From assembly GCA_902789555.1 (NCBI GenBank), contig CADAOF010000015.1, forward strand, positions 1-56,046: a stretch of DNA of 56,046 nt. Reading direction: 5' to 3'. The notes under the pieces are model-generated. The model saw only the letters and a list, made by a program, of their open reading frames with translations, did not search any database and was not told where the DNA came from. The stretch's first letter is position 1; every line of letters starts with the position of its first letter. This document shows positions 37,130 through 56,046 of this stretch, piece after piece. Origin of the DNA: an uncultured Lachnospiraceae bacterium. Lineage in GTDB: Bacteria > Bacillota > Clostridia > Lachnospirales > Lachnospiraceae. The position numbers were made by a program, and so were the translations under genes.

Positions 37130-37143
37130 AAATTGCCTCCGAT

Positions 37144-37155: not shown

Positions 37156-37168
37156 GCTTCTATAAAAA

Positions 37169-37197
37169 TAATTACAGCAAATATGTTTCCTTGTCAA
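37169..37197 (-). promoter_or_regulatory. Promoter of the cluster 2 operon
   Basis: On the minus strand: TTGACA (37192-37197), 17 bases, TAATTA (37169-37174), about 40 bases before the ATG in an AT-rich intergenic stretch. Confidence 0.7.
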
Positions 37198-37274
37198 TAT
37201 ATTTATTCGATAATTAAGAATAATTTGCAACAATTTTCACTCTGCAGCATCCTGCATCGACAAAAAATAATTAA

Positions 37275-37302
37275 TTGCAATAATATTATTTTGTGTTATA
37301 CT
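37275..37302 (+). promoter_or_regulatory. Promoter of the AraC-type gene
   Basis: TTGCAA, 16 bases, TATACT, ending 31 bases before the ATG. A similar TTGCAACAATTTT lies 50 bases upstream at 37225 (11 of 13 bases match 37275-37287), a possible pair of AraC-family half-sites. Confidence 0.6.
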
Positions 37303-37333
37303 GTTTTCAGCAACGAAAAGGACAGCGGACAGC

Positions 37334-38242
37334 ATGAAAAATCTTCAGCTTCTTTGGGTCTCAGACAGTACGCTGCAGCCCGGACACAGCGTCAAAACGC
37401 ATACACATGACGATTATTACCATCTCGTCTGCGTTAAGCACGGTGAAATGCATTTTACCCTGGATAAGGAAACCTTCCTCCTTCATGACGGGGACACCGT
37501 TCTGGTCCACAAGGGCGTGCAGCACGGTTTCGTCAACAATACCGGGGAAATCATCCTCTCCTGCGAGATCAAGTTCGTCGTGCTGAACAAGGCGCTGGAA
37601 CGGATCCTCACCCACTCCTCCGAGGGGCCTTTCCGCGACAGTTTTGTTACGCAGCTCATCTCTCACATCGCCCGAGAATACCGCCTGAACAAGGCCATGA
37701 AGGACGATGCCGCTGCCGTCGCTCTGGAAACGCTGATTTATCATCTGACCGCCGACATGCGGGAAGGCGACAGTTCCCGAATCATCGACACCGGCGGCTA
37801 TTCTGAGCTTTCCCGCCGTGTGATCGACTATCTGACAGAGCACTACGACGAAACCATTTCCCTGGATGACATCTCGCAGGGCGTCGGCATTACCAAGACC
37901 TATCTCTGCAATGCGTTCCGGAAAAACACCGGCATGACCATCTTCGACTGCCTGAAGCTCATCCGCATCCGAAAGGCGGCGGAGTTCCTGGTTTACAGCG
38001 ACCTGTCCCTCAACCAGATCGCGCAGATGTGCGGTCTGGTCTCTGCCAGCCACTTCAACCGCGTCTTCATGCATTACGTGGGGATCCCGCCGGGACAGTG
38101 CCGCCGGGCCTACGCCTACAACCTCTTAGCCGGCGCGGGCGACACCCAGCGCAGCGCGGACTCCTTCATGTACAGCGTACTTGCCGGCAAAGCGATCTCG
38201 CCGGAGATCATCAACAGCTTCGAATCCTTAAATCACGCATAA
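37334..38242 (+). CDS. AraC-family regulator with N-terminal cupin domain
   Basis: A 302-residue regulator. Residues about 20-75 form a cupin sensor (HTHDDYYHLVCV, LLHDGDTVLVHKGVQHGF). Residues about 155-255 carry two helix-turn-helix motifs (SLDDISQGVGITKTYLCNAFRKN and LNQIAQMCGLVSASHFNRVF). Divergent from the cluster 2 operon and upstream of the thiolase, so it probably activates both. The ribosome site is weak (AAAGGACAGC). The C-terminal tail of about 40 residues is longer than usual. Confidence 0.92.
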   Translation: MKNLQLLWVSDSTLQPGHSVKTHTHDDYYHLVCVKHGEMHFTLDKETFLLHDGDTVLVHKGVQHGFVNNTGEIILSCEIKFVVLNKALERILTHSSEGPFRDSFVTQLISHIAREYRLNKAMKDDAAAVALETLIYHLTADMREGDSSRIIDTGGYSELSRRVIDYLTEHYDETISLDDISQGVGITKTYLCNAFRKNTGMTIFDCLKLIRIRKAAEFLVYSDLSLNQIAQMCGLVSASHFNRVFMHYVGIPPGQCRRAYAYNLLAGAGDTQRSADSFMYSVLAGKAISPEIINSFESLNHA

Positions 38243-38249
38243 ATCGGAA

Positions 38250-38280
38250 GGCGGCGCCTTAAAAAGCGCCGCCCTTTGCT
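38250..38280 (+). terminator. Terminator of the AraC-type gene
   Basis: GGCGGCGC, eight-base loop, GCGCCGCC, then CTTTGCTTATTG. It lies 7 bases past the stop codon. Confidence 0.75.
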
Positions 38281-38317
38281 TATTGTTATTTATTTTTCAT
38301 TTATTTTACGTTTTCTC

Positions 38318-38346
38318 TTGCTTTTCTTGTCTTATATTATTATGAT
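38318..38346 (+). promoter_or_regulatory. Promoter of the cluster 2 thiolase
   Basis: TTGCTT, 17 bases, TATGAT, in a T-rich region about 70 bases before the start codon. Confidence 0.5.
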
Positions 38347-38414
38347 AAACATACAAGGACGAACGTTTCCTATACCGGCCGCAGTCTGCGGAAGAATTGA
38401 TACGGGAGGACCTC

Positions 38415-39611
38415 ATGATGCGTGAAGTTGTACTGGTGGACGGTGCCCGCACCGCCTTCGGCCGTCTGGGCGGCGGCTTAAGAAACTTTTATCCGGCGGA
38501 ACTGGCCGGTCTGGTGATCCGCGGACTGCTTGAAAAGACCGCTCTTTTGGAAAAGACGCCGGTTGACAACGTCTTTATCGGCTCCGCCTTCGGCGACGCC
38601 CGATCCTCGAACGTTGCCCGTTACGCTTCCCTTTATGCCGGTCTGCCTTACGAAGTCTCTGCCAGCTTTCTGGAGATGCAGTGCGGTTCGTCCGTGGACT
38701 GCATTAACCATGCGGCCTGGAAGATCGCCACAGGCAATGCAGACGTGATCATCGCCGGCGGCACCGAATCCTACAGTCAGAAATTCGCCAAGTTCAGCAT
38801 GTCCGTCGACCCCTACAAGCTAATCCCTCCCACGGCCATTCCGAATCAGCTTTCCCCGCGGAAAGAGGAAGCGATCGACATGGTCACGATCTCCGATTTG
38901 ATGGCAGCCCGCTGGGAGATCTCCCGCGAAGAGAGCGACGCCTTTGCCCTCAGAAGCCAGCAGCGCGCACAGAGAGCGGCAGAGAGCGGCTGGACCGGGC
39001 GGCAGATCACGCCGGTCGTGATCCCCGCGACGAAGCGCAGCCCCGAGACCGTTGTTTCGGAGGACGAAGGTCCCCGCAAAGACATGACGATCGAGCAGCT
39101 GAAAAAACTCCGCAGCGTCCGTGAAGGCGGCGTCACTACTGCCGGCAATGCCTGCGGCCGCAACGACGGCGCCGCCGCCGTGCTCCTGATGAGCGCCGAG
39201 AGAGCCCGGGAATGCGGCCTGAAGCCTCTCGCCTACTGGCGCGGGTCGGCCGAACACGGCGTCGATCCCCGCTACATGGGCATCGCCCCGGCGTACTCCA
39301 ACCTGAAACTGCTGAAAAAAGCCGGTTTGAGCTTAAAGGATATTGACATCTTCGAATGCAATGAGGCCTTTGCCGCCCAGAACCTCTCCGTGATCAAGGT
39401 CATGCAGGAGGAAAGCGGCGATACCGTCGACGAGACCCGCTGGAATCCCAACGGCGGCGCCATCGCCTACGGCCACCCCAACGGCGCCTCCGGTGCCCGC
39501 ATCGCTCTTTTCGCGGCGCAGGAATTAAGCGACTTCGACGGCCGCTACGCCCTCGTCTCCACCTGCTGCGGCGGCGGGCTGGGTATCTCCGCCCTCCTGG
39601 AACGCGCCTGA
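38415..39611 (+). CDS. Acetyl-CoA acyltransferase (thiolase), cluster 2
   Basis: A 398-residue thiolase with an intact site: Cys90 in EMQCGSSVDC, His in YGHPNGASG, the second Cys in STCCGGGLG, and NEAFAAQ. GGGAGGA lies 4 bases before the first ATG (38415) and 7 before the second (38418), so either may be used. It is transcribed apart from, but next to, the regulator of the cluster 2 operon and completes that pathway by cleaving the 3-oxoacyl-CoA. Confidence 0.95.
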   Translation: MMREVVLVDGARTAFGRLGGGLRNFYPAELAGLVIRGLLEKTALLEKTPVDNVFIGSAFGDARSSNVARYASLYAGLPYEVSASFLEMQCGSSVDCINHAAWKIATGNADVIIAGGTESYSQKFAKFSMSVDPYKLIPPTAIPNQLSPRKEEAIDMVTISDLMAARWEISREESDAFALRSQQRAQRAAESGWTGRQITPVVIPATKRSPETVVSEDEGPRKDMTIEQLKKLRSVREGGVTTAGNACGRNDGAAAVLLMSAERARECGLKPLAYWRGSAEHGVDPRYMGIAPAYSNLKLLKKAGLSLKDIDIFECNEAFAAQNLSVIKVMQEESGDTVDETRWNPNGGAIAYGHPNGASGARIALFAAQELSDFDGRYALVSTCCGGGLGISALLERA

Positions 39612-39694: not shown

Positions 39695-40789
39695 TTATTC
39701 CCTATCAGAGTTTTCCCCCTCCCGCAGGCTCTTTTTCCGGTCCTTTTCGATCAGGATCAGCGCAGTGAACGTGATTGCCGCAGTCATCGCGATCAGGCCG
39801 CGGTCATAGCGGCGCTCGAAGTAGACGCCTTCGGTGCCGGGCTCCGGCAGCCGGTCAGGATCGAAGCCGATGCCGTATTCCAGACAGAGCTTTTTGATAT
39901 TAAGGAAGGAAATGACTGGGATCCCCTCATTCAGATAGTATTCCATGAGGCCGCTGCCCGCGTTCAGTTCGGTCCGCTGCGGGGCCAGGATCCCGTAGGA
40001 ATTATCCAGTGCGAAGGCGTTCCGGCCGATCCCCGCAACGTTCCCGCCGACGTTGACGAAGGCGGCGGGGCTCCCGTAGATCCCGAGCCGCAGGCGGACC
40101 GCCTCCTCCAGGGAAACGACCGGCGTTACGGCCAGCCCTTCCGCGGCAAGCCGTGCCTTCACGGCCTCGATCTCTTCGGTCTCCTCCATCAGAGCGCCCG
40201 TCATGTCGGTGCCGGCGTCGTTCTGTCCGCCCATCGTGACGAGGGCAGGCGCCGCTCCGATCAGGCCGGCTTCATAGGCTGTCAAGAGCATTTCCGGCGC
40301 GGTATATTCCGGAATGTTGGCCCCGTAGAACGAAGCGCCGACCGCGGCGCTGTAGATGAGCTTAAGCCCCATGGCGTCCGCCGCGCAGACGGCGGCAAGG
40401 TCGATCCCCGGGAAGGAGCCGGAAAAGCAGGCAGCAAGAGTATCCCCCTCCTTCAGCCCGGCTTCGGTAAAAAGCCGCACGCAGAGGGCTGCCATTTCCG
40501 GCAGTTCGGCCGTGCGCTTCGCTTCCAGCTGGCCGACCGAGGTGGAGATAGAGGAATTCGGCAGACCGATCAGGCCGAGTCCCAGCGTATCCTCCGCGCT
40601 GATCGGGATCCCGCGGCGCAGCCTTTCGTTCCGCACGCATTCAAGCGCGCGCACATAGCGCTCTGCCGCCTCCCGCATCGTATCAAAGGCTTCCGCTTTC
40701 CGGCGGGAGCCTTCCTTATATATCAGCGCAGCCGCAGCAAGGACAAAGAGCAGCAGCCCGCAGTAAAATAGCAGCGTTCGTTTCTTCAT
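39695..40789 (-). CDS. pgsW: Poly-gamma-glutamate system protein PgsW-like
   Basis: A 364-residue protein. One N-terminal helix (about 6-24), then an extracytoplasmic domain with LGLIGLPNSSISTSVGQLEAK, GDTLAACFSGSFPGIDLA and VNVGGNVAGIG, and a second hydrophobic stretch near the C-terminus (about 330-350). This matches the poly-gamma-glutamate system protein that follows PgsB and PgsC in some anaerobes. Its role is not established. ATG at 40789 overlaps the PgsC stop (ATGA). No PgsA/CapA or PgsE is present nearby. Confidence 0.78.
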   Translation of the reverse strand: MKKRTLLFYCGLLLFVLAAAALIYKEGSRRKAEAFDTMREAAERYVRALECVRNERLRRGIPISAEDTLGLGLIGLPNSSISTSVGQLEAKRTAELPEMAALCVRLFTEAGLKEGDTLAACFSGSFPGIDLAAVCAADAMGLKLIYSAAVGASFYGANIPEYTAPEMLLTAYEAGLIGAAPALVTMGGQNDAGTDMTGALMEETEEIEAVKARLAAEGLAVTPVVSLEEAVRLRLGIYGSPAAFVNVGGNVAGIGRNAFALDNSYGILAPQRTELNAGSGLMEYYLNEGIPVISFLNIKKLCLEYGIGFDPDRLPEPGTEGVYFERRYDRGLIAMTAAITFTALILIEKDRKKSLREGENSDRE

Positions 40790-41208
40790 AGCACCCCGAA
40801 CCACAGCAGGCAGAGCGCGCACAGCCCGGTAACGATGCCGAGTGAGACGCCCGTCTTCGCGAAGCCCTGTTTCTGCAGATCCCGTACCAGCAGAGCAGGA
40901 ACGATATAGCCGATCATGCGGATGCCGCCCGGCAGAAGGCCCGTCGCTCCGATGAGAAGCGAGAGGCCGAGCCCCAGCACCACGTTGACGGCAAAAAGGC
41001 GCCGCCCGTAGAGGATAAGGAAGCGGCCGAGCAGCTTATCCAGCCCGTATACGGCAAGCACGATCAGCAGCGTATAGGCGATCCTCACCGGCTGGGCAAG
41101 GCAGAGCGCAAAATAGACCGGGGTCACCAGTCCGCCCGGAGAATAATGCGCGATCTCGGCGTACAGCACCGCCAGCAGGATCCCGACGGCAACGATCTCA
41201 GTGTACAT
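40786..41208 (-). CDS. pgsC: Poly-gamma-glutamate synthetase membrane subunit PgsC/CapC
   Basis: A 140-residue membrane protein starting MYTEIVAVGILLAVLYAE, with YSPGGLVTPVYFAL and four to five helices, the CapC pattern and size. The ATG at 41208 lies inside the end of pgsB with GGAGGAAG upstream; the longer frame extends into pgsB and is rejected. With PgsB it forms the membrane complex that polymerises or exports gamma-linked glutamate. Confidence 0.85.
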   Translation of the reverse strand: MYTEIVAVGILLAVLYAEIAHYSPGGLVTPVYFALCLAQPVRIAYTLLIVLAVYGLDKLLGRFLILYGRRLFAVNVVLGLGLSLLIGATGLLPGGIRMIGYIVPALLVRDLQKQGFAKTGVSLGIVTGLCALCLLWFGVL

Positions 41209-42349
41209 CGGCAGCTTCCTCCCTTCCGAGTTCCCTCTCCGCGCGCTGCGCGAGACGGATCCCTTCATTTTTAATATTGCCTGCCGCAAGGATCAGCGTC
41301 GGCGTCTCCGCCGAAAGCGGGATCTCGTCCGCGTTCGTGAAGACGCGGATCTCCGCTCCCGGGCACTTTTTCCGGCAGAGGCGGGCCAGCGCCGGCAGGC
41401 TTTCGCCGAGGAGCCAGATCTCCGCCGGCTGCAGTTCTCCCGCGAGCCTTGCCATGTCGGCGGCGCGGGCCGGACGGTCTTCGCGGTTGTTGAGGAGCAG
41501 GATCAGCCGTTCTCCTTCTCCGCCGCGGGTCCGTTCCCAGATCATCTTCGTTGACGTCACGTCATTCGCGGAGAGCGCATTCACGAAAGTGAGGCTGCCC
41601 TCATGGTAGACCGCGAGCGCGAAGGGATCCGGGCGGAATTGCGTGAAGCCCTTGACGGCCGCCTCGTCCGAAACGCCCAGGCTCCGGCAGACGGCAAGGG
41701 CCAGCGCGACGTTTTCGGAAAAATCGATCCCGGCAGCTCCCGGCACGCCCTCAAGGTCCTCCGGCGACGTGAAGCAGATGCTGCTCCCAAGCGCCTTCGC
41801 GCGTTCGCTCATGCGTTCCCGGAAATCCTGCTCCGCCGTAAAGATGCTGCCGCCCTCCGGAAGCATTTCCATGAGGCAGTCCAGGATCTCCCCCCGCGTC
41901 TCTCCCATCACGTCCATGTGGTCGAGCCGCGCATTGGTGATCACGCCGATATCGTTTCGGAGCATGTTTCGGGCCGAGACCCGCTGGTATTCCGGCTGCA
42001 GCGCCATGCACTCGATCACCAGGATGTCGGCCTTTTCCTCCGCGGCGGCATGCAGATATTTCAGCTGCTCGCGGATGTTCGCCGGTCCGCGTCTTCTGAT
42101 CTCCTCCTCGCGGCCATCCGGATGGAGGCAGAGCGGAAGCGTCCCCGTCGTCTTGCACATGACCCGGTACCCGCCGGCAGCCAGTCCGGCCGCAATAAGG
42201 CGCGAGACCGTCGATTTGCCCCGGGTCCCGTTCACATAGATCACATGCTGCAGTTTTTTCCTGTCCTGCCGCGCCCTTACCGCCTCTGCCGTGAGATAGG
42301 CAAAAAGCAGGCCGGAAAGGACCAGGATCGTTATCCATACCTTATCCAT
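41198..42349 (-). CDS. pgsB: Poly-gamma-glutamate synthetase ligase PgsB/CapB
   Basis: A 383-residue amide ligase of the Mur-ligase fold. It has an N-terminal helix (about 6-24), the P-loop VNGTRGKSTVSR, NARLDHMDVMGET, and LNNREDRPARAADMA. This is CapB/PgsB in layout and size. It uses ATP to link the gamma-carboxyl of glutamate, via an acyl phosphate, to the growing chain. The ribosome site is weak. First gene of the minus-strand pgsB-C-W unit, divergent from the lipoprotein operon at 42496, which encodes possible cleavage and uptake functions. Confidence 0.88.
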   Translation of the reverse strand: MDKVWITILVLSGLLFAYLTAEAVRARQDRKKLQHVIYVNGTRGKSTVSRLIAAGLAAGGYRVMCKTTGTLPLCLHPDGREEEIRRRGPANIREQLKYLHAAAEEKADILVIECMALQPEYQRVSARNMLRNDIGVITNARLDHMDVMGETRGEILDCLMEMLPEGGSIFTAEQDFRERMSERAKALGSSICFTSPEDLEGVPGAAGIDFSENVALALAVCRSLGVSDEAAVKGFTQFRPDPFALAVYHEGSLTFVNALSANDVTSTKMIWERTRGGEGERLILLLNNREDRPARAADMARLAGELQPAEIWLLGESLPALARLCRKKCPGAEIRVFTNADEIPLSAETPTLILAAGNIKNEGIRLAQRAERELGREEAADVH

Positions 42350-43887: not shown

Positions 43888-43903
43888 TCCGATCTGCTGC
43901 AGG

Positions 43904-43937
43904 GGGCGGAGCACTGTGTCTCCGCCCTTTGCCTTTT
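43904..43937 (+). terminator. Terminator or attenuator after the first lipoprotein gene
   Basis: GGGCGGAG, eight-base loop, CTCCGCCC, then TTTGCCTTTTT. It may lower expression of the downstream genes relative to the lipoprotein. A second stem (ACCGGATGCC with GGCTTCCGGT, one mismatch) lies at 43969-43992, followed by TCTTATATCTTC, before the GGT gene. Confidence 0.65.
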
Positions 43938-44037: not shown

Positions 44038-45858
44038 ATGAAAAAAGCACTTTCTCTGCTGCTCGTGTTCTGCCTGATCCTGGGCACGGCCGCCTGCGGA
44101 CAGAAGCCTGTCGAAACGTCGACGGCGGCGCCTTCCACCGCTGCCCCGCAGACCACGCAGGCAACGGAAGCCCCGACAGAGCCCGCACCGACCGAGCCTG
44201 CTCCGGCCTTCGACGGCGACACCTATAAGACCGGCGCGGCGGGCACGAACGGCGCAGCAGCCTGCGCCTCTTCCCTGGCATCTGACATCGCCGTGCAGAT
44301 CCTGGAGAAGGGCGGCAACGCGGTCGACGCGGCCGTCGCCATGATCTACGCGGTCGGCCTTCTGGAACCGGCAGCCTCCGGCATGGGCGGCGCCGGACAG
44401 ATGGTGATCTATCTGGCTGAAACGAACGAGTACGTATCCATCGAATACATGACGCAGGCGCCGGCAGCAGCCCTGCCCGGCGCGCTGGACGTTTCGACCT
44501 CCAGCACCCCGCCTTCGGTGGAGGCCATCGCGATCCCCGGCGTGGTGCACGGCACCCTGACGGCACTGGAAAAATTCGGCACCATGAGCGCAGCCGAAGT
44601 CCTGCAGCCGGTCATCGACCTGGCCCGGAACGGCTTCCCCTGCACGGCGCGCTGGAACACCAACATTGAAGGCCGTCTGGACAATCTGAAGGCCTACGAC
44701 TACACCCTCGGCCTGTACACCGACGAAGGTTTCCTGTACGAGGTCGGCGACACCATCAAGAACCCCGATCTGGCCGATACGCTGGAAATGCTTGCGAAGG
44801 ACGGCATCAAGGGTTTCTACGACAGCGAATTCACCGACAAGATGGTCAGCCACATCCAGAGCCTGGGCGGCGTGCTGACGCACGAGGATTTTGCCCAATA
44901 CAAGTCCGTGATGCGCGATCCGCTTTCCACCACCTACAACGGCTACACGGTCTATACCACCGGCGGTCCCTCCAACGGTGGCGTAGCCCTGCTGGAAGCC
45001 CTGAACATCCTGGAGCATTTCGATCTGAAGAGTTACGGCTTTGACAGCCCCGAGACCGTACAGATCATGGCGGACGCCTACGCGATGGCCTATCAGGACG
45101 GCGTTTCCTTCATGGGCGACCCCGACTACTACGACCTGCCCGTGGAAACGATCATCTCCAAGGAATATGCCGAAGAGCGCGCCAAGGCGATCACGCCCGG
45201 CGAACGCATCAAGACCGCCAAGGCCGGACGCCTGACGGTGACCCTGTCCGAGACCGGCCAGAAGGTGCTTGACGACTGCACGCCGGATCAGGGCGGCACG
45301 ACCCACCTGGTCTGCGCCGACAAGTTCGGCAACGTGGTCTCCACCACCAATACCAACGGCATCAACTTCGGTTCCGCCGTTGCAGTCCCCGGCACCGGCT
45401 TCGTCTTCTCTGCCCACCTGGGCAACCTGAACAACTCCACTTCCGCCCGTGTCAACATGGTCATGCCGTACATCCGCGTACGTTCGACGACCTGCCCGAC
45501 CATCGTTGCCGGTCCCGACGGCAAGCCGGTCCTCGCGATCGGTTCCCCGGGCAACTGGGCGCTCGTCTCCGCCGCCATCGAAGGCGTCGTGAACTACGCG
45601 ACCTTCGGCATGGGCCTCGGAAACGTGATCAACTCCCCCCGCAGCTACCGCGACGGCATCAGCAAGAACCTGACGATCGAATCCGGCTACAGCGAGGAAA
45701 CGATCAAAAAGCTGGAAGAAATGGGCTTCGTTCTGGAAGATTACGACAAGGATTTCAGTTCCCACGTCGGATCGCTCGCGGGCATTCAGATCAATTCTGA
45801 CGGCTCCTTCTGGGCGCTGGGCGATTTCCGCCGCAATTACGGCGCTTCCGCCTATTAA
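44038..45858 (+). CDS. Gamma-glutamyltransferase-like lipoprotein with altered substrate site
   Basis: A 606-residue Ntn-hydrolase: lipobox TAAC (Cys20), a Pro/Thr/Glu linker to about 58, then the GGT fold. The autoprocessing nucleophile is Thr421 in DQGGTTHLVCAD. Residues that hold the glutamyl group in E. coli GGT are changed by my alignment: Arg114 is Met138 (IEYMTQAP for DFREMAP), Gln430 is His460, Asp433 is Asn463, and oxyanion Gly484 is Asn (GSPGNW). It should therefore self-process but may not use ordinary gamma-glutamyl peptides. AAGGAG precedes the ATG. Its neighbours are pgsB/C/W and zinc hydrolases. Confidence 0.85.
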   Translation: MKKALSLLLVFCLILGTAACGQKPVETSTAAPSTAAPQTTQATEAPTEPAPTEPAPAFDGDTYKTGAAGTNGAAACASSLASDIAVQILEKGGNAVDAAVAMIYAVGLLEPAASGMGGAGQMVIYLAETNEYVSIEYMTQAPAAALPGALDVSTSSTPPSVEAIAIPGVVHGTLTALEKFGTMSAAEVLQPVIDLARNGFPCTARWNTNIEGRLDNLKAYDYTLGLYTDEGFLYEVGDTIKNPDLADTLEMLAKDGIKGFYDSEFTDKMVSHIQSLGGVLTHEDFAQYKSVMRDPLSTTYNGYTVYTTGGPSNGGVALLEALNILEHFDLKSYGFDSPETVQIMADAYAMAYQDGVSFMGDPDYYDLPVETIISKEYAEERAKAITPGERIKTAKAGRLTVTLSETGQKVLDDCTPDQGGTTHLVCADKFGNVVSTTNTNGINFGSAVAVPGTGFVFSAHLGNLNNSTSARVNMVMPYIRVRSTTCPTIVAGPDGKPVLAIGSPGNWALVSAAIEGVVNYATFGMGLGNVINSPRSYRDGISKNLTIESGYSEETIKKLEEMGFVLEDYDKDFSSHVGSLAGIQINSDGSFWALGDFRRNYGASAY

Positions 45859-45873: not shown

Positions 45874-47145
45874 ATGCGTGAAGAATATCTCGTCGCTCTC
45901 GTGATGTTCGCGGTGCTGATCATCGGCCAGATCGTCACGAAAAACGAAAAGAAATGGGCTGCGGTCTTTCTGCTCCTGGCATCGGTCGCCGGGAGCCTGG
46001 CCGCCGGCATGGGCATCCGCTTCCGCGAGATCGTGGAAGGCCCCTTCGGTTTCCTGGACGCGGCCTTAAGCGTGTGCGCGGGCGCCCTGTTCACGGGGCT
46101 CCTCTACCGCTGCGGCTTCATGGAAAAGCTGCTTGACCGCATCCTCCGGGTCCGCGGAGACTTCCTGCGGGCGCTGTGCCTTCTGCTCTTCATCGGCATG
46201 CCCGGCATGTTTTCCGGCCTCGCCTCCCTGTCGGTGCTGACGACCGGGAAACTGGCCGGCGAAAAGATGAAGGCGCAGGGGATCGCTGACGGGAAGATCG
46301 CGGTCACCGTCATCGGCGGCGCCTTTTTCGGCATGATGCTGCCTCCCAACTGCCTGCCGGCGATCATCGCCTCGAACGGTGCGGGAAGCGTGCTGCCGAC
46401 GCCGTACGTGGGCTTTTTCATGCCCCTCCTGGTACTGACGCTGCCCTGCCTTCTCCTGTTCACCCTGCTGAACCGGAAGACGCTTTCTCTCCTCCGTGAG
46501 GAAGGAAAAGCGGAAAAGCTTCCTGTTCTGCCTCTCACCGTCTTCATTCTGGTCTGGGCTGCCCTCCTCGTGGAAGGCCTCCTGACCTCTTACGTTTACA
46601 TCGGCGGTAATACGTTAGTCTTCTTCATCGCGTCCCTCCTGCTGGTCTTTGCCGGCGGCGGTGTTTCCGCAGCCGTGGACAGCCTCTATGACGCGGTGAT
46701 CCCCGTGGCGCTCATGTTTGCGCTCGGCAGCTTCATCGAAGTCAGCTCCATGACGGGCGTCCGCGGCATCTACAGCCTGCTGACGCTTCCGCAGACGACG
46801 GGCGGACAGACCACGGCGGTCATGCTGGTCCTGATGGCGATCTCCATTGCCCTCGGCTTCGTCCTTTCCGTCCCGATCCCGGCCTTCCTCGTCACCTACG
46901 CGGTCTTCCCGATCGGCTGGCTGGCCAATCCGGTCATCGTCACCGGGATCTCGGTCGCCGCAGGCATTGCTTATCTTGCCGCGGTCCGCGGCGGACTCTT
47001 CACCGAGACCGCAAGGACCCTGCAGCTGAAGGACGCGAAGTGGGGCGAAAGCCTGAAGCCCCTGCTCCTTCCCGTGCTCCTGATGCTGGTGCTGGCGGTG
47101 ATCATGGTCCTTTACGGAGATCCTCTGGATTTCCTCATCATGTAA
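45874..47145 (+). CDS. DctM-like/ion-transporter-superfamily permease (module 1)
   Basis: A 423-residue protein with about 11-12 hydrophobic helices and two re-entrant-type regions: GMFSGLASLSVLTTG with GGAFFGMMLPPNCLP in the first half, and a similar PIPAFLVTYAVFP stretch in the second. Size and the GG-x-x-x-G-x-x-x-PP loop recall the large TRAP/ion-transporter permeases. It has a full-length paralogue at 49213. A ribosome site (GGAAAGAAG) precedes the ATG, 15 bases after the GGT stop. Substrate is unknown; products of the surface hydrolases are likely. Confidence 0.78.
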   Translation: MREEYLVALVMFAVLIIGQIVTKNEKKWAAVFLLLASVAGSLAAGMGIRFREIVEGPFGFLDAALSVCAGALFTGLLYRCGFMEKLLDRILRVRGDFLRALCLLLFIGMPGMFSGLASLSVLTTGKLAGEKMKAQGIADGKIAVTVIGGAFFGMMLPPNCLPAIIASNGAGSVLPTPYVGFFMPLLVLTLPCLLLFTLLNRKTLSLLREEGKAEKLPVLPLTVFILVWAALLVEGLLTSYVYIGGNTLVFFIASLLLVFAGGGVSAAVDSLYDAVIPVALMFALGSFIEVSSMTGVRGIYSLLTLPQTTGGQTTAVMLVLMAISIALGFVLSVPIPAFLVTYAVFPIGWLANPVIVTGISVAAGIAYLAAVRGGLFTETARTLQLKDAKWGESLKPLLLPVLLMLVLAVIMVLYGDPLDFLIM

Positions 47146-47158
47146 GGAGGCGTTCGTC

Positions 47159-47305
47159 ATGCTGGAAATCATTTATTACGTGATCATAGCCGTCATGGCC
47201 GTGCTCCTGTTTGTCAACATCCTCAAAAAGCGGGATCTCCCGGAACTGATCTGCATCGCCGCGGTGCTGGTCACTTTCGCGCTCCGGGCCCTGCACATCA
47301 AGTAG
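47159..47305 (+). CDS. 48-residue two-helix membrane protein (module 1)
   Basis: Forty-eight codons from an ATG with AAGGAGG eight bases before it, ending in TAG. Two hydrophobic helices (about 3-21 and 28-43) flank a basic turn, NILKKRDLPE, and it closes with LRALHIK. It has exactly the same length and plan as the gene at 50506 in the paralogous module, including VN-x-x-KK-x-D and an LR near the end. It lies 13 bases after the permease and 10 before the hydrolase. I infer a small permease subunit, comparable in position to DctQ of TRAP systems but far smaller. No family is recognised. Confidence 0.82.
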   Translation: MLEIIYYVIIAVMAVLLFVNILKKRDLPELICIAAVLVTFALRALHIK

Positions 47306-47315
47306 GAGGGCGAAG

Positions 47316-48479
47316 ATGAAGAAATTTTCTTATCTCTGGAAAAACGCCCTCGTCCTGGTCCTGGCACTGGTCTTTGCCATCCCCGCCGCCCTTGATTTCA
47401 AGGCCATGCAGAAGCGGGAACCCATTGCGGAGAACGAAGCCCTGACCGAAACGCGCATGCTTTCCGAATACTGCGAAGGTCTGAAAGGAACGCCCGCGGA
47501 TACCGAGATCTACATCCTGGACAGCGGCGTCCCCGGCGGGACCTTCCTGATCTTCGGCGGCACCCATCCTAACGAAACGGCAGGCATGCTGGCCGCCGTC
47601 TCGCTCGTGGAAAACATGAAGCCCACTGCGGGCCGCTTCTTCATCATCCCCTGGCTGAACAAGAGCGGCTTCACCCACACCTCGCCGCTCGACGGCATGC
47701 AGGACTTCTTCGACATCAAGCTGGATGACGGCTCCGTCCGCACCTTCCGCGTGGGCAACCGCCTGACGAATCCCATCCACCAGTGGCCGGACCGCACCTA
47801 CTACGAAGGGACCAGCGGCCGCAAGCTCGTGGGCACGGAGACTGCGGAGATCCGCAACGTCAACCGCATGTACTACGGCAATCCGGACGGCGTTCTGACC
47901 GAGAAGGTCTGCTGGGGCATCTATCAGCTGATCCTGAAAGAAGGCGTCAACCTCACCATGGACATGCACGAAGGCTCGCCGGAATTCCTCTACCTTGACT
48001 GCACGATGGTCAACGAGAAGGCCGACAATCCCACGGCGATGTCGATCGCCCAGGGCATGTCCCTCGACATGGAATTCGACGACCTGACCATGCGGGCGGA
48101 ATTCTCCGGCATGAAGTCCTACGGCCTGTCCCACCGCTCGCTGGGCGACAACACGCCGTCCATGATGACGCTGATGGAGACCTACAACCCGTCCATGGGT
48201 CCGCTCCACGGCAAGATGGATGACGACCTGATCATTAACGGCAACGAGCCGAATTACGTGGAAGCCTATGAGCGCGGCCTGAACTATTTCAAGGTCGACG
48301 ACAGCGGCTATCCGCTCATCAACCGCGTGGCAAGGCACATCACCTGCATCAGTTATCTGGCCAAGAACTACACGGAAGCCCATCCCGACAGAGCCATGGG
48401 CTTCGAAGGCCTGGGAAGCTATGCGGACATGGTGGCCAAAGGCCTCGGCGGCCTGCTGAAACCCGTCGGTCAGAAATGA
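47316..48479 (+). CDS. Membrane-anchored AstE/AspA-type zinc hydrolase (module 1)
   Basis: A 387-residue protein with one N-terminal helix (about 11-26, no lipobox), then an M14-like domain of the succinylglutamate desuccinylase/aspartoacylase type. Zinc ligands are His84 and Glu87 in GGTHPNE and His218 in TMDMHEGSPE; NVNR (183-184) matches the substrate-binding N-R pair, and Glu288 in LMET is the likely general base. It should act outside the membrane on an N-acyl or amide-linked amino acid. TAGGAGGG precedes the ATG. Paralogue of the 50664 product (shared EIYILDSGVPG and NPI-x-QWPD). Confidence 0.88.
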   Translation: MKKFSYLWKNALVLVLALVFAIPAALDFKAMQKREPIAENEALTETRMLSEYCEGLKGTPADTEIYILDSGVPGGTFLIFGGTHPNETAGMLAAVSLVENMKPTAGRFFIIPWLNKSGFTHTSPLDGMQDFFDIKLDDGSVRTFRVGNRLTNPIHQWPDRTYYEGTSGRKLVGTETAEIRNVNRMYYGNPDGVLTEKVCWGIYQLILKEGVNLTMDMHEGSPEFLYLDCTMVNEKADNPTAMSIAQGMSLDMEFDDLTMRAEFSGMKSYGLSHRSLGDNTPSMMTLMETYNPSMGPLHGKMDDDLIINGNEPNYVEAYERGLNYFKVDDSGYPLINRVARHITCISYLAKNYTEAHPDRAMGFEGLGSYADMVAKGLGGLLKPVGQK

Positions 48480-48522
48480 CCGCTCTCTCATATCACATCA
48501 AGAAGCTTTGGAGGAAAGAAAA

Positions 48523-49200
48523 ATGAAGAAGATCTTTGTTCTGCTGCTAGCGGCCCTGCTGCTGCTTATCTCTGCCTGCGGAAGGCAGGAAAACACCCCG
48601 GCTACCGGCCAGAAGGAAACGAACGCCGGAACGGAAGCCTATGATCCCAGCAAGACCGTCGAATTCGAAATGAAGACCAGCGAGACCAACCGTATCGTCA
48701 CGGTCGGCACCGTGGACAAGAGCCTTTACAGCGCTCCGATCCTGATCACCTCCTTCGGTCAGAGCACCGACGCGGCGACCCTGGATACCGCCATGAAGCG
48801 TGCCGGCGCGAATTACGACTACAAGCCGCAGGCGACTGCCGATGAGATCGGCAGCTACAAGACCCTCGTCATCGCCGTCGGCGCCAGCACCAAGGGCCTC
48901 GGCCAGGCCGGCATTTCCGAAAAGGACGAGACCGCCCGTGCGGAAGCCATCATGGCCAAGGCGAAAGAAACCGGTGCGCAGGTCGTCTGCGTGCACATCG
49001 GCGGCGAGACCCGCCGCGGCGTCCTTTCCGACGCGCTTGCCGATCTGGTCCTGCCGCAGTGCAGCCTGATCATCCTGAAGGAAGACGCCAACTGGGACGG
49101 CAAGTTCACGAACTACGCCGATCAGAACAAGCTTCCGATCATTCTGATCTTCGGCCAGAAGGATACCGTCCAGGTCATGACGGACGTCTTCGGCAAATAA
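48523..49200 (+). CDS. DUF6305-like lipoprotein
   Basis: A 225-residue lipoprotein: lipobox ISAC (Cys19), a short linker, then an alpha/beta domain with strands SAPILITSFGQS, YKTLVIAVGAS, GAQVVCVHIGGE, SLIILKE and LPIILIFGQ, the alternation of a Rossmann-like fold. It resembles DUF6305 proteins, whose function is not known. A TTG five codons upstream is rejected because GGAGGAAAG sits directly before the ATG at 48523. It stands just ahead of permease 2 and is my candidate binding component of module 2. Confidence 0.72.
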   Translation: MKKIFVLLLAALLLLISACGRQENTPATGQKETNAGTEAYDPSKTVEFEMKTSETNRIVTVGTVDKSLYSAPILITSFGQSTDAATLDTAMKRAGANYDYKPQATADEIGSYKTLVIAVGASTKGLGQAGISEKDETARAEAIMAKAKETGAQVVCVHIGGETRRGVLSDALADLVLPQCSLIILKEDANWDGKFTNYADQNKLPIILIFGQKDTVQVMTDVFGK

Positions 49201-49212
49201 GGAGAAAAATTC

Positions 49213-50490
49213 TTGGACAGAGAACTGATTTGCTTACTGGTGATGCTGGCAGTCTTTCTGTTGGCTAACCTGCTGGCGAAGCTCCCGGTCAGCATTTCGA
49301 TGGTGCTGGGAGCCGTCGCCGGCGCGCTGGCGGGCGGACAGGGCATTCCTCTGCGGCATCTGTTTGAAGGGACCTTCACCTATCTGGATACGATCCTGAT
49401 CATCTCCGCGGCCATGCTGTTCATGACCGTGATCCAGGAATCCGGCGCACTGGAAGCCCTCAATGCCGTGATCGTGACCCGTTTCTACAAGAAGCCGGCG
49501 CTCATGCTGATCCTGCTCATGTTCATGATCATGTTCCCCGGGATGATCACCGGTTCCTCCACGGCCGCCGTGCTTTCCGCCGGCGCCCTCGTGGCCCCGG
49601 TGCTGCTCCTCATCGGCATCCCGAAGGAAAAGACCGGCGCCATCATCGCGATGGGCGCCATCATGGGCATGGCGGCACCGCCCATCAACATCCCCGCCCT
49701 GCTGATCGCGGGCGGCGTGGACATGCCGTACATCGGCTTCGAAGGCCCGCTCTTCTTCATCACCGTCCCCTGCGCGGTCATCGCGGTCCTGATCCTGGGC
49801 CTTAAGCACTGCAAGGGACTGGACATTGAAAAGCTGAAGGCGGAGCTCGATCTGGAGATCGGAAAGAAATACGGCTTCCGGCTGTACATCCCGATCTTCG
49901 TGCTGATCATCCTGCTGGTCGTCTCCAAGCTGGTGCCGTCGCTTCCGCAGCTCGGCACGGCGCTGATCTTCCTGATCTCCGCTGCCGTAGGCTGCTTCAC
50001 CGGCCGCCGCTTCAACGTCTGGGAGAAGTCCCTGAGCGCCATGGAGACCACGATCCCGGTCCTCGGCAAGCTCATGGGCGTGGGCATGTTCATTCAGGTG
50101 CTTACGCTGGTTGGCGCGCGCGGCTGGATCGTCGTCAGCGCCCTCAGCCTCGGTACCGTGATGCTCTACATCTTCTCCTGCACCATCATGCCCGCCTTCG
50201 GCGCCATCAGTTCCTACGGCGCGGCGTCGGTCATGGGCGTTCCCTTCCTGCTGGTGCTGCTGCAGACCGGCGGGAGCAACGATATCGTGCTGTGCTGCAT
50301 GCTTTCCTTCCTCTGCTGTCTGGGCGACCTGATGCCGCCGACGGCGCTGGCCGGCAACTATGCCGCACAGATCGTGGGCCTCAAATACGGCCCCGTCCTG
50401 GAGAAATGCGTGATCCCCTTCCTGATCTGCCTGGCCGCCGGCCTGCTCTGCCTGATCTTCTCGGGATCGCTGTCATTCCTTACGGCTTAA
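49213..50490 (+). CDS. DctM-like/ion-transporter-superfamily permease (module 2)
   Basis: A 425-residue permease with about 11-12 helices. It has GMITGSSTAAVLSAG with MGAIMGMAAPPINIP (first re-entrant loop) and AFGAISSYGAA with GDLMPPTALAG (second). The helix plan equals that of the 45874 product, though residues differ widely. The start is a TTG at 49213, eight bases after AAGGAG; no in-frame ATG is near. It follows the DUF6305-like lipoprotein by 12 bases. Clear TRAP-type features support carboxylate or amino-acid-derivative import. Confidence 0.82.
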   Translation: MDRELICLLVMLAVFLLANLLAKLPVSISMVLGAVAGALAGGQGIPLRHLFEGTFTYLDTILIISAAMLFMTVIQESGALEALNAVIVTRFYKKPALMLILLMFMIMFPGMITGSSTAAVLSAGALVAPVLLLIGIPKEKTGAIIAMGAIMGMAAPPINIPALLIAGGVDMPYIGFEGPLFFITVPCAVIAVLILGLKHCKGLDIEKLKAELDLEIGKKYGFRLYIPIFVLIILLVVSKLVPSLPQLGTALIFLISAAVGCFTGRRFNVWEKSLSAMETTIPVLGKLMGVGMFIQVLTLVGARGWIVVSALSLGTVMLYIFSCTIMPAFGAISSYGAASVMGVPFLLVLLQTGGSNDIVLCCMLSFLCCLGDLMPPTALAGNYAAQIVGLKYGPVLEKCVIPFLICLAAGLLCLIFSGSLSFLTA

Positions 50491-50505
50491 GGAGGGCCTG
50501 AAAAC

Positions 50506-50652
50506 ATGCAGATCGTATATCTCATCATTCTGGCCTTCGTGCTGGTGCTGATCGTCGTCAACATGTTCAAAAAGAAGGATAACTTCTTTTTCCAGCTGGA
50601 CGCGGCGCTCGTGATGATCACGCTGCTGCTGCGCCTGCTGCTGCTGAAGTAG
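50506..50652 (+). CDS. 48-residue two-helix membrane protein (module 2)
   Basis: Forty-eight codons starting MQIVYLIILAF, with a first helix about 2-20, a basic turn NMFKKKDN, a second helix about 30-46 and the end LRLLLLK. AAGGAGGG lies before the ATG. It occupies the same slot, 15 bases after the permease and 11 before the hydrolase, as the gene at 47159 and has the same length. Conservation of length, turn and position between two diverged modules argues that it is a real functional gene rather than a chance frame. Confidence 0.82.
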   Translation: MQIVYLIILAFVLVLIVVNMFKKKDNFFFQLDAALVMITLLLRLLLLK

Positions 50653-50663
50653 GGGGTGAACGC

Positions 50664-51791
50664 ATGAAAAAGATCCCCCGCCACATTCTGACCGCTTCGC
50701 TGCTGACCCTCTTCGTCATCGCGATGGTCGTTTATCTGGGTCTGAACTTCCGCTCCATGAAGGAAGAAGAGCCCATCTACCCCGGCCCCGGCGTGACAAG
50801 CCGGGAAATGCTCAGCAAATACTGTCCTTCCCTGGAAGGGACCTCAGGCGACACCGAGATCTACATTCTGGACAGCGGCGTTCCGGGCGCCAGCATGCTG
50901 GTCCTCGGCGGAACGCATCCGAACGAACCGTCCGGCTTCATCTCCGCCATCTCCCTGATCGAGACGCTGAAGCCCTCAGCCGGCGTATTCTACGTGATTC
51001 CGCGGGCCAATAACAGTGCCTTCACCTGCAATGACCCGCAGGAAGGCTCGCCTCAGCGCTTCACCATCGAAACGGCCGGCGGCAGCCGCTGGTTCCGCTT
51101 CGGGTCCCGCGCCACCAATCCCATCGACCAGTGGCCGGACAGCGAAGTCTACGTGCACGCCTCCTCCGGGCAGACCCTCTCCGGCAGTGAGATCCGGAAC
51201 CTGAACCGCGCCTATCCGGGCCGTGAGGACGGTACGCTCACCGAAAAGGTCGCCTACGGCATCACGCAGTTCATCCTGAAGCATGACGTCACCATCACCG
51301 TGGACCTGCACGAAGCGTCTCCGGAATACACGACCGTCAACGCCATCGTGGCGCATGAGAACGCGATGGATCTCGCGACCCTCTCCCTCTGGGAACTTGA
51401 GGACGTGATGAAGATCTCCGTGGAAGCTTCCCCGAAGAAACTGCACGGACTGACCCACCGCGAGCTGGGCGACTTCACGAGTACGCTGGCTCTCCTGATG
51501 GAGACCGCGAACGCTTCCCAGGGCCGTCTGCACGGAACGGTCACGCCTGAAATGATCGTCACGGGGCAGGACAAGTTCTACGTCCGCGCCGGCCGCTACG
51601 GCGCCCTGACCGTGGACTACCCGGAGAGCGGCATCGGCATGAGCGAACGCTGTGCGCGTCACCTGACGGCGCTCTTTGAGTTCTGCCGGGCCTACGACGG
51701 CCCTGCCGGCACGATCGATCCGGGCGATGTCCCCGGCTACAAAGACATCCTGACCAACGGGATCGGGGCCTATCTGGCCTCCCCGAAGTAA
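50664..51791 (+). CDS. Membrane-anchored AstE/AspA-type zinc hydrolase (module 2)
   Basis: A 375-residue protein: N-terminal helix about 8-28, then the zinc hydrolase domain. Ligands are His85 and Glu88 in GGTHPNE and His216 in TVDLHEASPE; NLNR ends at Arg182, and Glu280 in LLMET is the likely general base. EIYILDSGVPG and NPIDQWPD are shared with the module 1 enzyme, while the substrate loops differ. GGGGGTGAACGC precedes the ATG. It should cleave an acyl- or amide-linked amino acid at the cell surface before uptake by permease 2. Confidence 0.88.
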   Translation: MKKIPRHILTASLLTLFVIAMVVYLGLNFRSMKEEEPIYPGPGVTSREMLSKYCPSLEGTSGDTEIYILDSGVPGASMLVLGGTHPNEPSGFISAISLIETLKPSAGVFYVIPRANNSAFTCNDPQEGSPQRFTIETAGGSRWFRFGSRATNPIDQWPDSEVYVHASSGQTLSGSEIRNLNRAYPGREDGTLTEKVAYGITQFILKHDVTITVDLHEASPEYTTVNAIVAHENAMDLATLSLWELEDVMKISVEASPKKLHGLTHRELGDFTSTLALLMETANASQGRLHGTVTPEMIVTGQDKFYVRAGRYGALTVDYPESGIGMSERCARHLTALFEFCRAYDGPAGTIDPGDVPGYKDILTNGIGAYLASPK

Positions 51792-51836: not shown

Positions 51837-52787
51837 ATGCCTCGTATTTTTCGAATCACCGCCCTGTTTCTGATCCTCTGCACCCTGCTTTCCGCCTGCG
51901 GCGGAAGTCCCTCCGAAAGCACCGCGCCGGCAGAGACGCCTGCGGCCGCCTCTTCGGAAACGGAGACCCATCTGCAGACTGAGGAGGGCTGGTCGGTCGT
52001 GACCGTCCACGGCGTGGAAATGCTCTGGGACGGCAGCCGTGTGAAGGATCAGTACGCAGATCTGGACATCGACGCCATGCACTTCTCCGATTTCGGAGAG
52101 GACCTCTTCACGGAGACCTATCCGGTGGAAACGGAACGTTACGTTCTCTGCCCCGGCGAGATCACCGAAGCGGAGGTCCTGCACATCCGCGGAGCGGAGG
52201 AAGGCCCCGTCATCTACATCGTGGCCGGCGTGCACGGCGACGAGATCGCTGCCTGGTACGCAGGACGCCTCCTGCGCGCCGCGACCCTGAAAAAAGGCGA
52301 GCTCTACGTCATCGCTCCGGCCAATACGAACGGTGCGAAAAATGTTACGCGCTACGTAAAGGACCGCCAGGACTTAAACCGCTCCTTCCCCGGCAGCGAG
52401 ACCGGGAACGAAGCCGAGCGGATGGCGAACGCGATCTTCCGGGACATCGAACGGGTCAAACCGTACCTGGTCTTCGACCTGCACGAAGCGATCGTCTACA
52501 CGAGCGGCCGGGATTTCCTGGGCAGCAGCCTGATCTTTACGGAACTCGGTGACGCGAAAGACATGTTCTTTGATCTGCTGTTCGCGACGCAGGACGGCGA
52601 GCTCTGCGCGAACGAGTACGTCAGCTATGGCCCCGGCCCGCAGGGAAGCATCAACAATACGGTATCCAACGAACTGGGCATCCCCGCGATCACGGTCGAG
52701 ACCTTCCGCGGTTTCGAGATCGGCCGCCGCGTCAGCGACCAGCTGCAGATCGTGCAGTACGTGCTGCGGTATCTGGACATGAGATAG
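51837..52787 (+). CDS. AstE/AspA-type zinc hydrolase, lipoprotein form
   Basis: A 316-residue lipoprotein (lipobox LSAC, Cys21) with an Ala/Ser/Glu/Pro linker and a compact zinc hydrolase domain: His133 and Glu136 in GVHGDE, QDLNRSFPG (Asn181, Arg182), His216 in FDLHEA, and Glu288 in TVETFRG. It is closer to classical succinylglutamate desuccinylase/aspartoacylase spacing than the other two. No good ribosome site is seen; the start is set by the signal peptide. It probably belongs to the same surface system, with a distinct bond preference. Confidence 0.85.
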   Translation: MPRIFRITALFLILCTLLSACGGSPSESTAPAETPAAASSETETHLQTEEGWSVVTVHGVEMLWDGSRVKDQYADLDIDAMHFSDFGEDLFTETYPVETERYVLCPGEITEAEVLHIRGAEEGPVIYIVAGVHGDEIAAWYAGRLLRAATLKKGELYVIAPANTNGAKNVTRYVKDRQDLNRSFPGSETGNEAERMANAIFRDIERVKPYLVFDLHEAIVYTSGRDFLGSSLIFTELGDAKDMFFDLLFATQDGELCANEYVSYGPGPQGSINNTVSNELGIPAITVETFRGFEIGRRVSDQLQIVQYVLRYLDMR

Positions 52788-54635: not shown

Positions 54636-56046
54636 TCAGCCGGCAGGGGTGATGGCGGCAGTGACTCTGCCGCCGTCGTAAGAAGTGTTGCCCTCTTCGG
54701 GATCAATAAGGAAGAATACTTCGTCGCCGGCCAGCACGTCCCACGGCAGATCAAACGGTTTTACCTGGTCTTCCGTAAAGTTGCCCTTCACTCCGATGAA
54801 CTGTTCCATGCCATCCACGGGATTGCCGCCGCGGTACAGTTTGACACGGAAGCAGACACCGTTCGCGTTCGGATCCGCACTGTTGGCAAATTTCACATAC
54901 TCGCCTTCGATCCGGATCTTGCCGGCCTCAGCCACGACCCACTTATAGGCGGCATTCCTGCCGCGCGGTTCGGCAAAGTCCGCTTTCACTTCCGCCTTGC
55001 CGTCGGCGAGATATGCGCCGTTTGCATAAGGCAGTTCCTCAAAACTCGCGCCGTTCCAGTCGGCGGCGCCGTAATACCAGCCGTTCGTGCCCTGCACGGC
55101 GCTGAAATCATCCTTCAGCACCGCATTGTTCGTTCTTCTGAATGTCCAGGTACCGGTGAAAACGATGTTCGCACCGTTAACGGTTTCGCTGTCCTTATCC
55201 CAGCCCTGGAATTCCCAGACACCGCGATTGCCGCCATCTGTCCCTGCCACGGAGGTGCTGCTCGGAGCGGCCGGCGTTACCGTCGTACCGTCCGTATGCT
55301 CCTCAGCTGCGGGCAGCGTCGCCATGACAGCGTCAGGATATGTTCCGTCGTATGCGTAGCTTACCGTATACTTGGTCGGTTCCACCGGATCGGGGGTAAA
55401 CGTCCAGGTGCCGGTGAAGGTGACGTTCGCGCCGTTCACCGTCTTCGTGTTTGCATCCCAACCGTCGAATTTCCAGGTCCCGGACACGCCGTCCTGTTCC
55501 CCTGCGATCTCCGCCGGATCAGGCTGGATCGCGGTCACTTCCGCGCCGTCTTCGTATTCGGCGCCGTCCGAAGGCAGCGTCGCCATGACGGCTTCGGGAT
55601 ACGTTCCTTCGTAAACGTAGCTCACCGTATACTTCTGGGTCGGTTCCGCCGGGCCGGCGGTAAACGTCCAGGTGCCGGTAAAGGTGACGTTCGCGCCGTT
55701 CACCGTCTTCGTGTTTGCATCCCAGCCGTCGAACTTCCAGGTCCCGGACACGCCGTCCTGTTCCCCAGCGATCTCCGCCGGATTCGGCTGGATCGCGGTC
55801 ACTTCCGCGCCGTCTTCGTATTCGGCGCCGTCCGAAGGCAGCGTCGCCATTACGGCTTCCGGATACGTTCCTTCGTAAACGTAGCTTACCGTATACTTCT
55901 GGGGCGGTTCCGCAGGCTCGTCAACGGCCGTGATGGCGACGCTCAGGCGTCCGCCGTCATAGCTGTCGTTGCCTTCGGGGTTGATCGCGAAGAGGATCTC
56001 GTCGCCCGCGTGAACGTCATACTTCTCGTCGAACTCGACCTTCCGT
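54636..56046 (-). CDS. SHIRT-repeat secreted or surface protein (5' end beyond window)
   Basis: The frame is open to the right edge, so at least 469 residues are encoded and the start is missing. From its visible start: a beta-domain piece with AGDEILFAINPEGNDSYDGG, three SHIRT-type repeats (each KYTVSY-x-Y-x-GTYP-x-AVMATLP ... GW ... VNGAN ... FTGTWTF), then a lectin-like domain starting NGWYYGAADWNGASFEELPY and ending in a second AGDEVFFLIDPEEGN. No LPXTG or membrane anchor follows; it ends AAITPAG. SHIRT repeats form stiff rods in adhesins, so this is probably an exported adhesion or carbohydrate-binding protein. Confidence 0.82.
   Translation of the reverse strand, partial: RKVEFDEKYDVHAGDEILFAINPEGNDSYDGGRLSVAITAVDEPAEPPQKYTVSYVYEGTYPEAVMATLPSDGAEYEDGAEVTAIQPNPAEIAGEQDGVSGTWKFDGWDANTKTVNGANVTFTGTWTFTAGPAEPTQKYTVSYVYEGTYPEAVMATLPSDGAEYEDGAEVTAIQPDPAEIAGEQDGVSGTWKFDGWDANTKTVNGANVTFTGTWTFTPDPVEPTKYTVSYAYDGTYPDAVMATLPAAEEHTDGTTVTPAAPSSTSVAGTDGGNRGVWEFQGWDKDSETVNGANIVFTGTWTFRRTNNAVLKDDFSAVQGTNGWYYGAADWNGASFEELPYANGAYLADGKAEVKADFAEPRGRNAAYKWVVAEAGKIRIEGEYVKFANSADPNANGVCFRVKLYRGGNPVDGMEQFIGVKGNFTEDQVKPFDLPWDVLAGDEVFFLIDPEEGNTSYDGGRVTAAITPAG
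55140..55898 (-). repeat. Three tandem SHIRT-encoding repeats
   Basis: Repeat units lie at 55635-55898, 55374-55634 and 55140-55373. The first two differ by only about a dozen bases over 260; the third has diverged strongly in its middle. This indicates recent duplication of one unit, with copy number likely to vary between strains. Confidence 0.88.

Follow-up and report, generated by a model that had tools for sequence, protein, structure and literature searches.

Two paralogous gene cassettes for surface hydrolysis and transport lie beside the genes of a poly-gamma-glutamate (PGA) synthase on a 56,046-nucleotide stretch (the window) of contig CADAOF010000015.1, from an uncultured Lachnospiraceae bacterium close to rumen Lachnospiraceae (assembly GCA_902789555.1). 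Between positions 45874 and 51791, a preliminary description made from the sequence had noticed two adjacent sets of the same order and plan, each with a permease (423 and 425 amino acids (aa), respectively), a 48-aa two-helix protein and a membrane-anchored AstE/AspA-type hydrolase, the first set (A) being preceded by a lipoprotein resembling gamma-glutamyltransferase (GGT) and the second (B) by a DUF6305-like lipoprotein. Both sets are confirmed as real, paralogous genes and both lipoproteins belong to the families proposed (Table 1). What had been overlooked is that pgsB, pgsC and pgsW (39695-42349) run divergently upstream of the duplicated cassettes on the minus strand, and that a third hydrolase, hydrolase C (51837-52787), follows them. 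The composition and conserved order of the cassette and the catalytic residues of its hydrolases are established, as is its near-exclusive co-occurrence with PgsB and PgsW in two genome samples. The cassette very probably belongs functionally with the PGA synthase. As for the locus as a whole, there is about an even chance that it constitutes a CapA-less PGA system, made of PgsB, PgsC and PgsW without CapA/PgsA beside pgsB, in which the cassettes would form the surface-processing and transport arm.

The co-occurrence was assessed in 398 Bacillota genomes (phylum sample) and in 98 relatives, both samples including the window's own genome. With a full-length match to the membrane hydrolase defined as E <= 3.2e-75 (the next-best row stands at 2.3e-13, and rows with E >= 2.3e-13 were dropped), this enzyme was found in 24 of the 398 Bacillota genomes, spread over 13 families. 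PgsB scored above its cut-off in 33 genomes of the same sample, namely 23 of the 24 with the hydrolase vs. 10 of the 374 others (Fisher 1.7e-28, kinship being ignored); four more genomes with PgsB under cut-off (G120, G299, G324 and G335) were excluded from the counts and none of them has the hydrolase. PgsW was present in 24/24 hydrolase genomes vs. 0/10 genomes with PgsB but without hydrolase, and in the sole hydrolase genome devoid of a PgsB match (G369) pgsW is cut off at a contig end. Among the relatives, the hydrolase is strongly matched in 12 genomes, all of which have PgsB, whereas PgsB was detected in none of the other 86, the weak partial matches in G025 and G043 (E about 1e-4) being excluded from the counts. 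Since hydrolase and PgsB lie on different contigs in nine of these 12 genomes and on one contig in three, the association suggests something more than linkage, even if draft assemblies are no proof of it. In the phylum sample, 18 of 23 genomes have pgsB and the hydrolase at most 10 kb apart and, upon direct inspection of regions L078 and L083, pgsB also adjoins cassettes in G211 and G296; in the hydrolase tree, the cassettes near pgsB fall on several branches. Bacillus subtilis, one of 14 control genomes, has a PgsB match and no DUF6305 or PgsW match. Altogether, the adjacency to PgsB and the near-constant co-occurrence point to gamma-glutamyl substrates for the cassette.

The arrangement of the synthase genes relative to the cassette differs from one locus to another. 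In L009, the same genes run on a single strand in the order GGT, DUF6305, permease, 49-aa protein, hydrolase B, hydrolase C, pgsB, pgsC and pgsW, and comparable one-strand runs are found in L010 and L085. In a Burkholderiales contig (L014), pgsB, pgsC and pgsW converge on the cassette, where permease and hydrolase are separated by a 53-codon open reading frame (ORF) that is recognised by the small-protein profile (E 1.1e-8) and exhibits the C-terminal LRxLxxK signature of the 48-aa family. In total, pgsB appears in the available stretch of five of 11 named loci (L005, L009, L010, L013 and L014). Regarding CapA/PgsA (PF09587), the window genome has no match; among the 23 cassette genomes with PgsB, this family adjoins pgsB in none, the nearest copy on the same contig being 183 kb away, and in six of the 10 PgsB genomes without hydrolase it is no more than about 1 kb from pgsB. 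Of the components of a classical PGA locus, PgsB and PgsC are thus present here and CapA/PgsA beside PgsB is not. PgsC, recognised by PF14102, reaches 81 bits with TIGR04011, under the cut-off of 96.45 for this model. As for PgsW, NCBIfam gives a system name with no activity stated, and this model name shows that curators had already tied the family to PGA. Neither PgsW nor DUF6305 had a convincing match among solved relatives.

The grouping of permease, small protein and hydrolase, proposed from the window, withstood a survey of genome neighbourhoods. A scripted count placed a 48-aa match within 500 bp of 42 of the 47 homologous permease matches, and at least 36 of the 54 small genes have both a permease and a hydrolase within 500 bp, the best four candidates at most being scored per genome in the permease and hydrolase searches, which hides some partners. 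Three of the five permeases without such a neighbour (G271, G146 and G374) are split matches with the small gene just past the second half; for the other two (G133:C33 and G436:C48) no small gene is listed. Before counting, three of 57 small-protein matches (E >= 0.038) were dropped, together with 11 of 58 permease rows, i.e. three second halves of split matches, two fragments and six weak matches. The 48-aa protein contains two hydrophobic stretches and, across rows picked by profile match that include the window copies and near-copies, Tyr5 and Arg43 are kept in 57/57 (54 distinct; L014 included), the last residue being Lys in 54 and Arg in three. Of the two permeases, both first described as DctM-like, permease B matches the DctM family (PF06808), as do eight of 11 aligned homologues at E <= 0.001; permease A has no match in the family scan. 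Like TRAP transporters (DctP-DctQ-DctM), the cassette contains a DctM-type component; unlike them, it includes a 48-aa two-helix protein after the permease, and a family scan of ten window proteins gave no match of the DctQ or DctP type. As it has neither a Q nor a P subunit, it is filed as TRAP-like rather than as a TRAP transporter. With an isethionate TRAP protein, the profile of the permease family gave an alignment that spans almost all of the M part, at an insignificant E of 2.3, and phage-family matches for the permeases yielded nothing useful.

Like AspA, AstE, DoeB, MpaA and Csd4, the cassette hydrolases keep the His-x-x-Glu ... His zinc site, the Asn-Arg pair and the distal Glu. In rows likewise picked by profile match, window copies and near-copies included, the zinc-binding His/Glu/His triad is found in 66/66 (64 distinct), the catalytic Glu in 65/66, and the Asn and Arg of the pair in 64/66 and 66/66, respectively; in carboxypeptidases and acylases this pair holds the free carboxylate. 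Unlike these relatives, they carry an insert with QWPD and are membrane-anchored, as a simple hydropathy rule finds a hydrophobic N-terminal stretch in 61/66 rows, 56 of which (56/66 overall) have the charge pattern placing the enzyme outside. Scores of the window hydrolases with the NCBIfam AstE/AspA equivalogs fall far under cut-off. The profile of hydrolase C relatives matches AstE/AspA proteins, MpaA and the solved structures 4wck/4wcm ('conserved hypothetical secreted protein'), chain 4wck being presumably the Csd4 of Helicobacter pylori. Both MpaA and Csd4 cleave amide bonds of gamma-D-Glu, which in the case of MpaA are gamma-D-Glu-diaminopimelate bonds. The phage-type gamma-PGA hydrolases PghP and PghL are likewise zinc enzymes that have been compared with carboxypeptidases, and in PghL the places of Arg127/Asn144/Arg145 of carboxypeptidase A are taken by His77/Thr79/Ser80 (PMC6506827). 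As these clamp residues differ from the Asn-Arg pair kept by hydrolase B, the latter looks exo-acting rather than PghP-like; a PghP-like endo-hydrolase received no support, on this ground and for lack of a PghP match to the profile. At L087:8813-10021 (minus strand), one protein joins DUF6305 to the catalytic domain of an AstE/AspA enzyme, and the hydrolase and DUF6305 searches point to such a fusion in G323 and G371 as well.

From these elements, a mechanism can be proposed in which PgsB and PgsC, with PgsW, would make a gamma-glutamyl polymer, judging from their families. Outside the cell, the lipoprotein GGT and the three zinc hydrolases (A, B and C), as exo-acting enzymes, would trim gamma-glutamyl units or cut gamma-glutamyl peptides, and DUF6305 would work with the hydrolases, as the fusion hints. 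Considering its linkage to the permease and its invariant residues, the 48-aa two-helix protein may be a small subunit of the DctM-like permease, and both together would import the products of this cleavage, either glutamate or short gamma-glutamyl compounds. The chances that this trim-and-import mechanism holds in full are put at roughly equal either way. A review of PGA in Bacillus names ggt among the PGA-degrading genes (PMC5751247), so that there is a precedent for an organism that both makes and degrades PGA.

A number of observations weigh against the trimming and import of PGA, the main difficulty being the number of cassettes per synthase. In G211, nine permease-small-hydrolase sets, counted from the inspected regions and the match list, coexist with one PgsB, along with nine small-protein, nine DUF6305 and eight GGT matches. 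In 20 regions chosen by the author for neighbourhood inspection, cassettes stand beside GGT, beside C69-dipeptidase-like ORFs, or near both, the latter family amounting by similarity to 18 ORFs (three Pfam-checked) in eight of these regions (L070, L072, L077, L078, L079, L080, L082 and L087). Such neighbours, together with cassettes outnumbering the synthase, suggest wider peptide substrates, and with such a surplus the cassettes may also be part of a scavenging system or may share PGA as a gamma-glutamyl donor. DUF6305 occurs in 23/24 hydrolase genomes but also in 23 other genomes, and GGT in 23/24 but also in 8/10 PgsB-only genomes, so that neither is specific. Besides, among solved structures the hydrolase profile best matches AstE/AspA proteins and N-acetyl-diaminobutyrate deacetylases, hence an N-acyl substrate fits too, and the gamma-PGA hydrolase PghP is absent from the nine matches of this profile to E 10. 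Permease A is devoid of the second-repeat PP motif, which is kept in 54/60 permease rows, all six exceptions being copy A. Finally, the available stretch of six of the 11 named loci (L006, L007, L008, L011, L012 and L015) is without pgsB.

Several of these points would be accounted for by general amino-acid or peptide scavenging, where the cassettes would each couple a surface peptidase to an importer, for various N-acyl or peptide-bound amino acids, and PGA synthesis would be only a shared lifestyle trait, e.g. as a matrix holding surface enzymes. The nine cassettes for one PgsB in G211, the dipeptidase-like ORFs, the deacetylases among solved relatives and a 2-oxoacid:ferredoxin-oxidoreductase-type protein beside one cassette (L088, in G204) all speak for it; a scavenging unit would nonetheless be expected also without PGA synthase, in conflict with an association to PgsB and PgsW that is nearly exclusive in two samples, even across contigs, and this explanation is held possible at about one half of the weight given to trim-and-import. 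The uptake of N-acyl amino acids by a free-standing transporter with no PGA link, as put forward in the preliminary description, can rely on the AstE/AspA membership of the hydrolases and on cassette order and linkage. It leaves the PgsB/PgsW association unexplained and appears very improbable, the adjacency and co-occurrence with PGA synthase pointing elsewhere, but the broader idea of surface cleavage coupled to import is retained in the reading preferred here.

In a role in export or assembly, permease and 48-aa protein would stand in for CapA/PgsA and PgsE and help PGA or its precursors to leave the cell, the hydrolases and GGT setting chain length or anchoring PGA. CapD provides a precedent for such chain-length control or anchoring, and PgsE/CapE is a small membrane protein. 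The lack of a CapA homologue beside pgsB in all 23 cassette genomes with PgsB, and of PF09587 in the window genome, would fit this role. PgsE/CapE is also given as a further component of the classical system (PMC5751247). This export arm is nevertheless deemed rather unlikely, as cassettes are present in several copies per genome and away from pgsB and as the known DctM-type and related permeases mostly import small anions. A last possibility, about as doubtful, is that PGA serves as an extracellular gamma-glutamyl donor with which GGT loads captured amino acids or peptides, the hydrolase and DUF6305 setting specificity and the permease with its 48-residue subunit importing the conjugates, i.e. 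a polymer-driven counterpart of Meister's gamma-glutamyl cycle; if true, it would explain why up to nine cassettes (G211) accompany one synthase and why, across both samples, they hardly ever occur without it.

Regarding the origin of the duplication, trees place permease A and hydrolase A on long, supported and deep branches apart from copy B, and copy A is also found in four same-genus genomes (G005, G010, G011 and G013) among the 98 relatives. On these grounds, a recent tandem duplication of the cassette is rejected; from sequence comparison, copy A is an old divergent paralogue, which the preliminary description had missed. The likeness of copy A to copy B as mere chance similarity was also rejected by comparing the sequences.

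PGA is known mainly as the Bacillus capsule or slime made by PgsBCA. Like the Bacillus PgsBCA(E)/CapBCAE loci, the present one combines PgsB and PgsC homologues with a GGT-family enzyme in the same organism; unlike them, it has PgsW instead of a CapA/PgsA near pgsB, with a permease, a 48-aa protein, a membrane zinc hydrolase and DUF6305 in addition, in more than one copy in several genomes. In the open-licence literature, a paper on PGA in Cloacimonadota reports CapB, CapC and CapA (PMC13082233), and CapBC is mentioned in another paper (PMC8542988). In the same literature, no description of the cassette was found among the matches listed, nor any paper on DUF6305 or on poly-gamma-glutamate with DctM or PgsB with a TRAP transporter; for PgsW, TIGR04332 or 'poly-gamma-glutamate system protein', the titles among the matches listed were unrelated, except for one Francisella paper. 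Within this literature, the locus would then be a variant of PGA systems and the cassette a TRAP-like arrangement matched to no described one. If the preferred reading is true, a second, CapA-less type of PGA system would extend across a range of Bacillota (13 families in the sample; the named contigs include rumen Lachnospiraceae). It would be coupled to surface enzymes dedicated to it and to an unusually composed transporter, a DctM-like permease whose 48-residue partner replaces the TRAP Q and P subunits. It would also offer testable roles for DUF6305, PgsW and a family of very small proteins that may escape gene finders, and the reason why such bacteria make PGA would become a question for enzyme and transport assays.

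Table 1. Genes of the PGA synthase, the duplicated cassettes and their immediate neighbours in the window.
Feature	Position	Strand	Basis
pgsW, poly-gamma-glutamate system protein	39695..40822	-	TIGR04332 265 bits, cut-off 100
pgsC/capC, poly-gamma-glutamate synthase membrane subunit	40786..41289	-	PF14102 Caps_synth_CapC 83 bits, above cut-off
pgsB/capB, Mur-ligase-like poly-gamma-glutamate synthase	41198..42349	-	TIGR04012 314 bits, cut-off 222.7
Lipoprotein without confident family, 463 aa	42496..43887	+	kept before GGT in same-genus loci
Gamma-glutamyltransferase with lipoprotein signal	44038..45858	+	TIGR00066 390 bits (cut-off 357.85); PF01019 415 bits, above cut-off; lipobox read from sequence
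Permease A, 423 aa, divergent paralogue of permease B	45874..47145	+	sequence comparison
48-aa two-helix protein A	47159..47305	+	sequence comparison
Membrane-anchored AstE/AspA-type zinc hydrolase A	47316..48479	+	PF24827 26.6 bits, cut-off 25; catalytic residues kept
DUF6305 lipoprotein	48523..49200	+	PF19823 154 bits; lipobox read from sequence
Permease B, 425 aa, DctM-family	49213..50490	+	PF06808 51.5 bits, cut-off 23.8
48-aa two-helix protein B	50506..50652	+	sequence comparison
Membrane-anchored AstE/AspA-type zinc hydrolase B	50664..51791	+	PF24827 32.8 bits, cut-off 25; catalytic residues kept
AstE/AspA-type hydrolase C, predicted lipoprotein	51837..52787	+	PF24827 62.5 bits, cut-off 25

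On the plus strand, the seven cassette genes follow one another in the order permease A, 48-aa protein A, hydrolase A, DUF6305 lipoprotein, permease B, 48-aa protein B and hydrolase B, with 10 to 45 bases between neighbours and with sites that resemble ribosome-binding sites, and 15 bases separate the end of the GGT gene from permease A. On the minus strand, the true starts are probably near 40789 for pgsW and near 41208 for pgsC/capC, as far as the sequence tells. The promoter scan reported no sigma-70-like site between pgsB and the forward genes. The 463-aa lipoprotein gene precedes GGT in the same-genus loci L005-L008 (L007 being partial), and one good terminator-like site (43899-43932) stands between the two genes, the former being probably a transcript separate from the GGT gene. 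By eye, this lipoprotein contains two similar stretches, each with CADGY... NxGR... AYPDYTLQ. Farther away and by reading only, 29913-39611 encodes a peptide-type ABC importer (minus strand) followed by 3-hydroxyacyl-CoA dehydrogenase, short-chain dehydrogenase and thiolase-like genes, and a long ORF at 54636-55850 (minus strand) with near-identical repeats (YTVSY.Y.GTYP.AVMATLP...) is a probable surface repeat protein.

Some further neighbours were encountered in the 20 inspected regions. Two similarity clusters recur together in eight of them (L071, L079, L082, L084, L085, L086, L087 and L089); three checked members comprise two histidine kinases and one response regulator, and the members in L086 and L089 are long or overlapping frames. 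A gene pair similar to the oxidoreductase-type gene of L088 is present in L071 (G211), where it was named by reading of the sequence. In L088, a CDC48-like AAA ATPase in a bacterial genome (5989-8118) is encoded between pgsW and a cassette. At L076:10884-12020 and 12094-13344, a D-glutamate-cyclase-like protein (PF14336) beside a GGT cassette adjoins a gene that reads as TRAP-large-permease-like, which would fit D-glutamate coming from a PGA.

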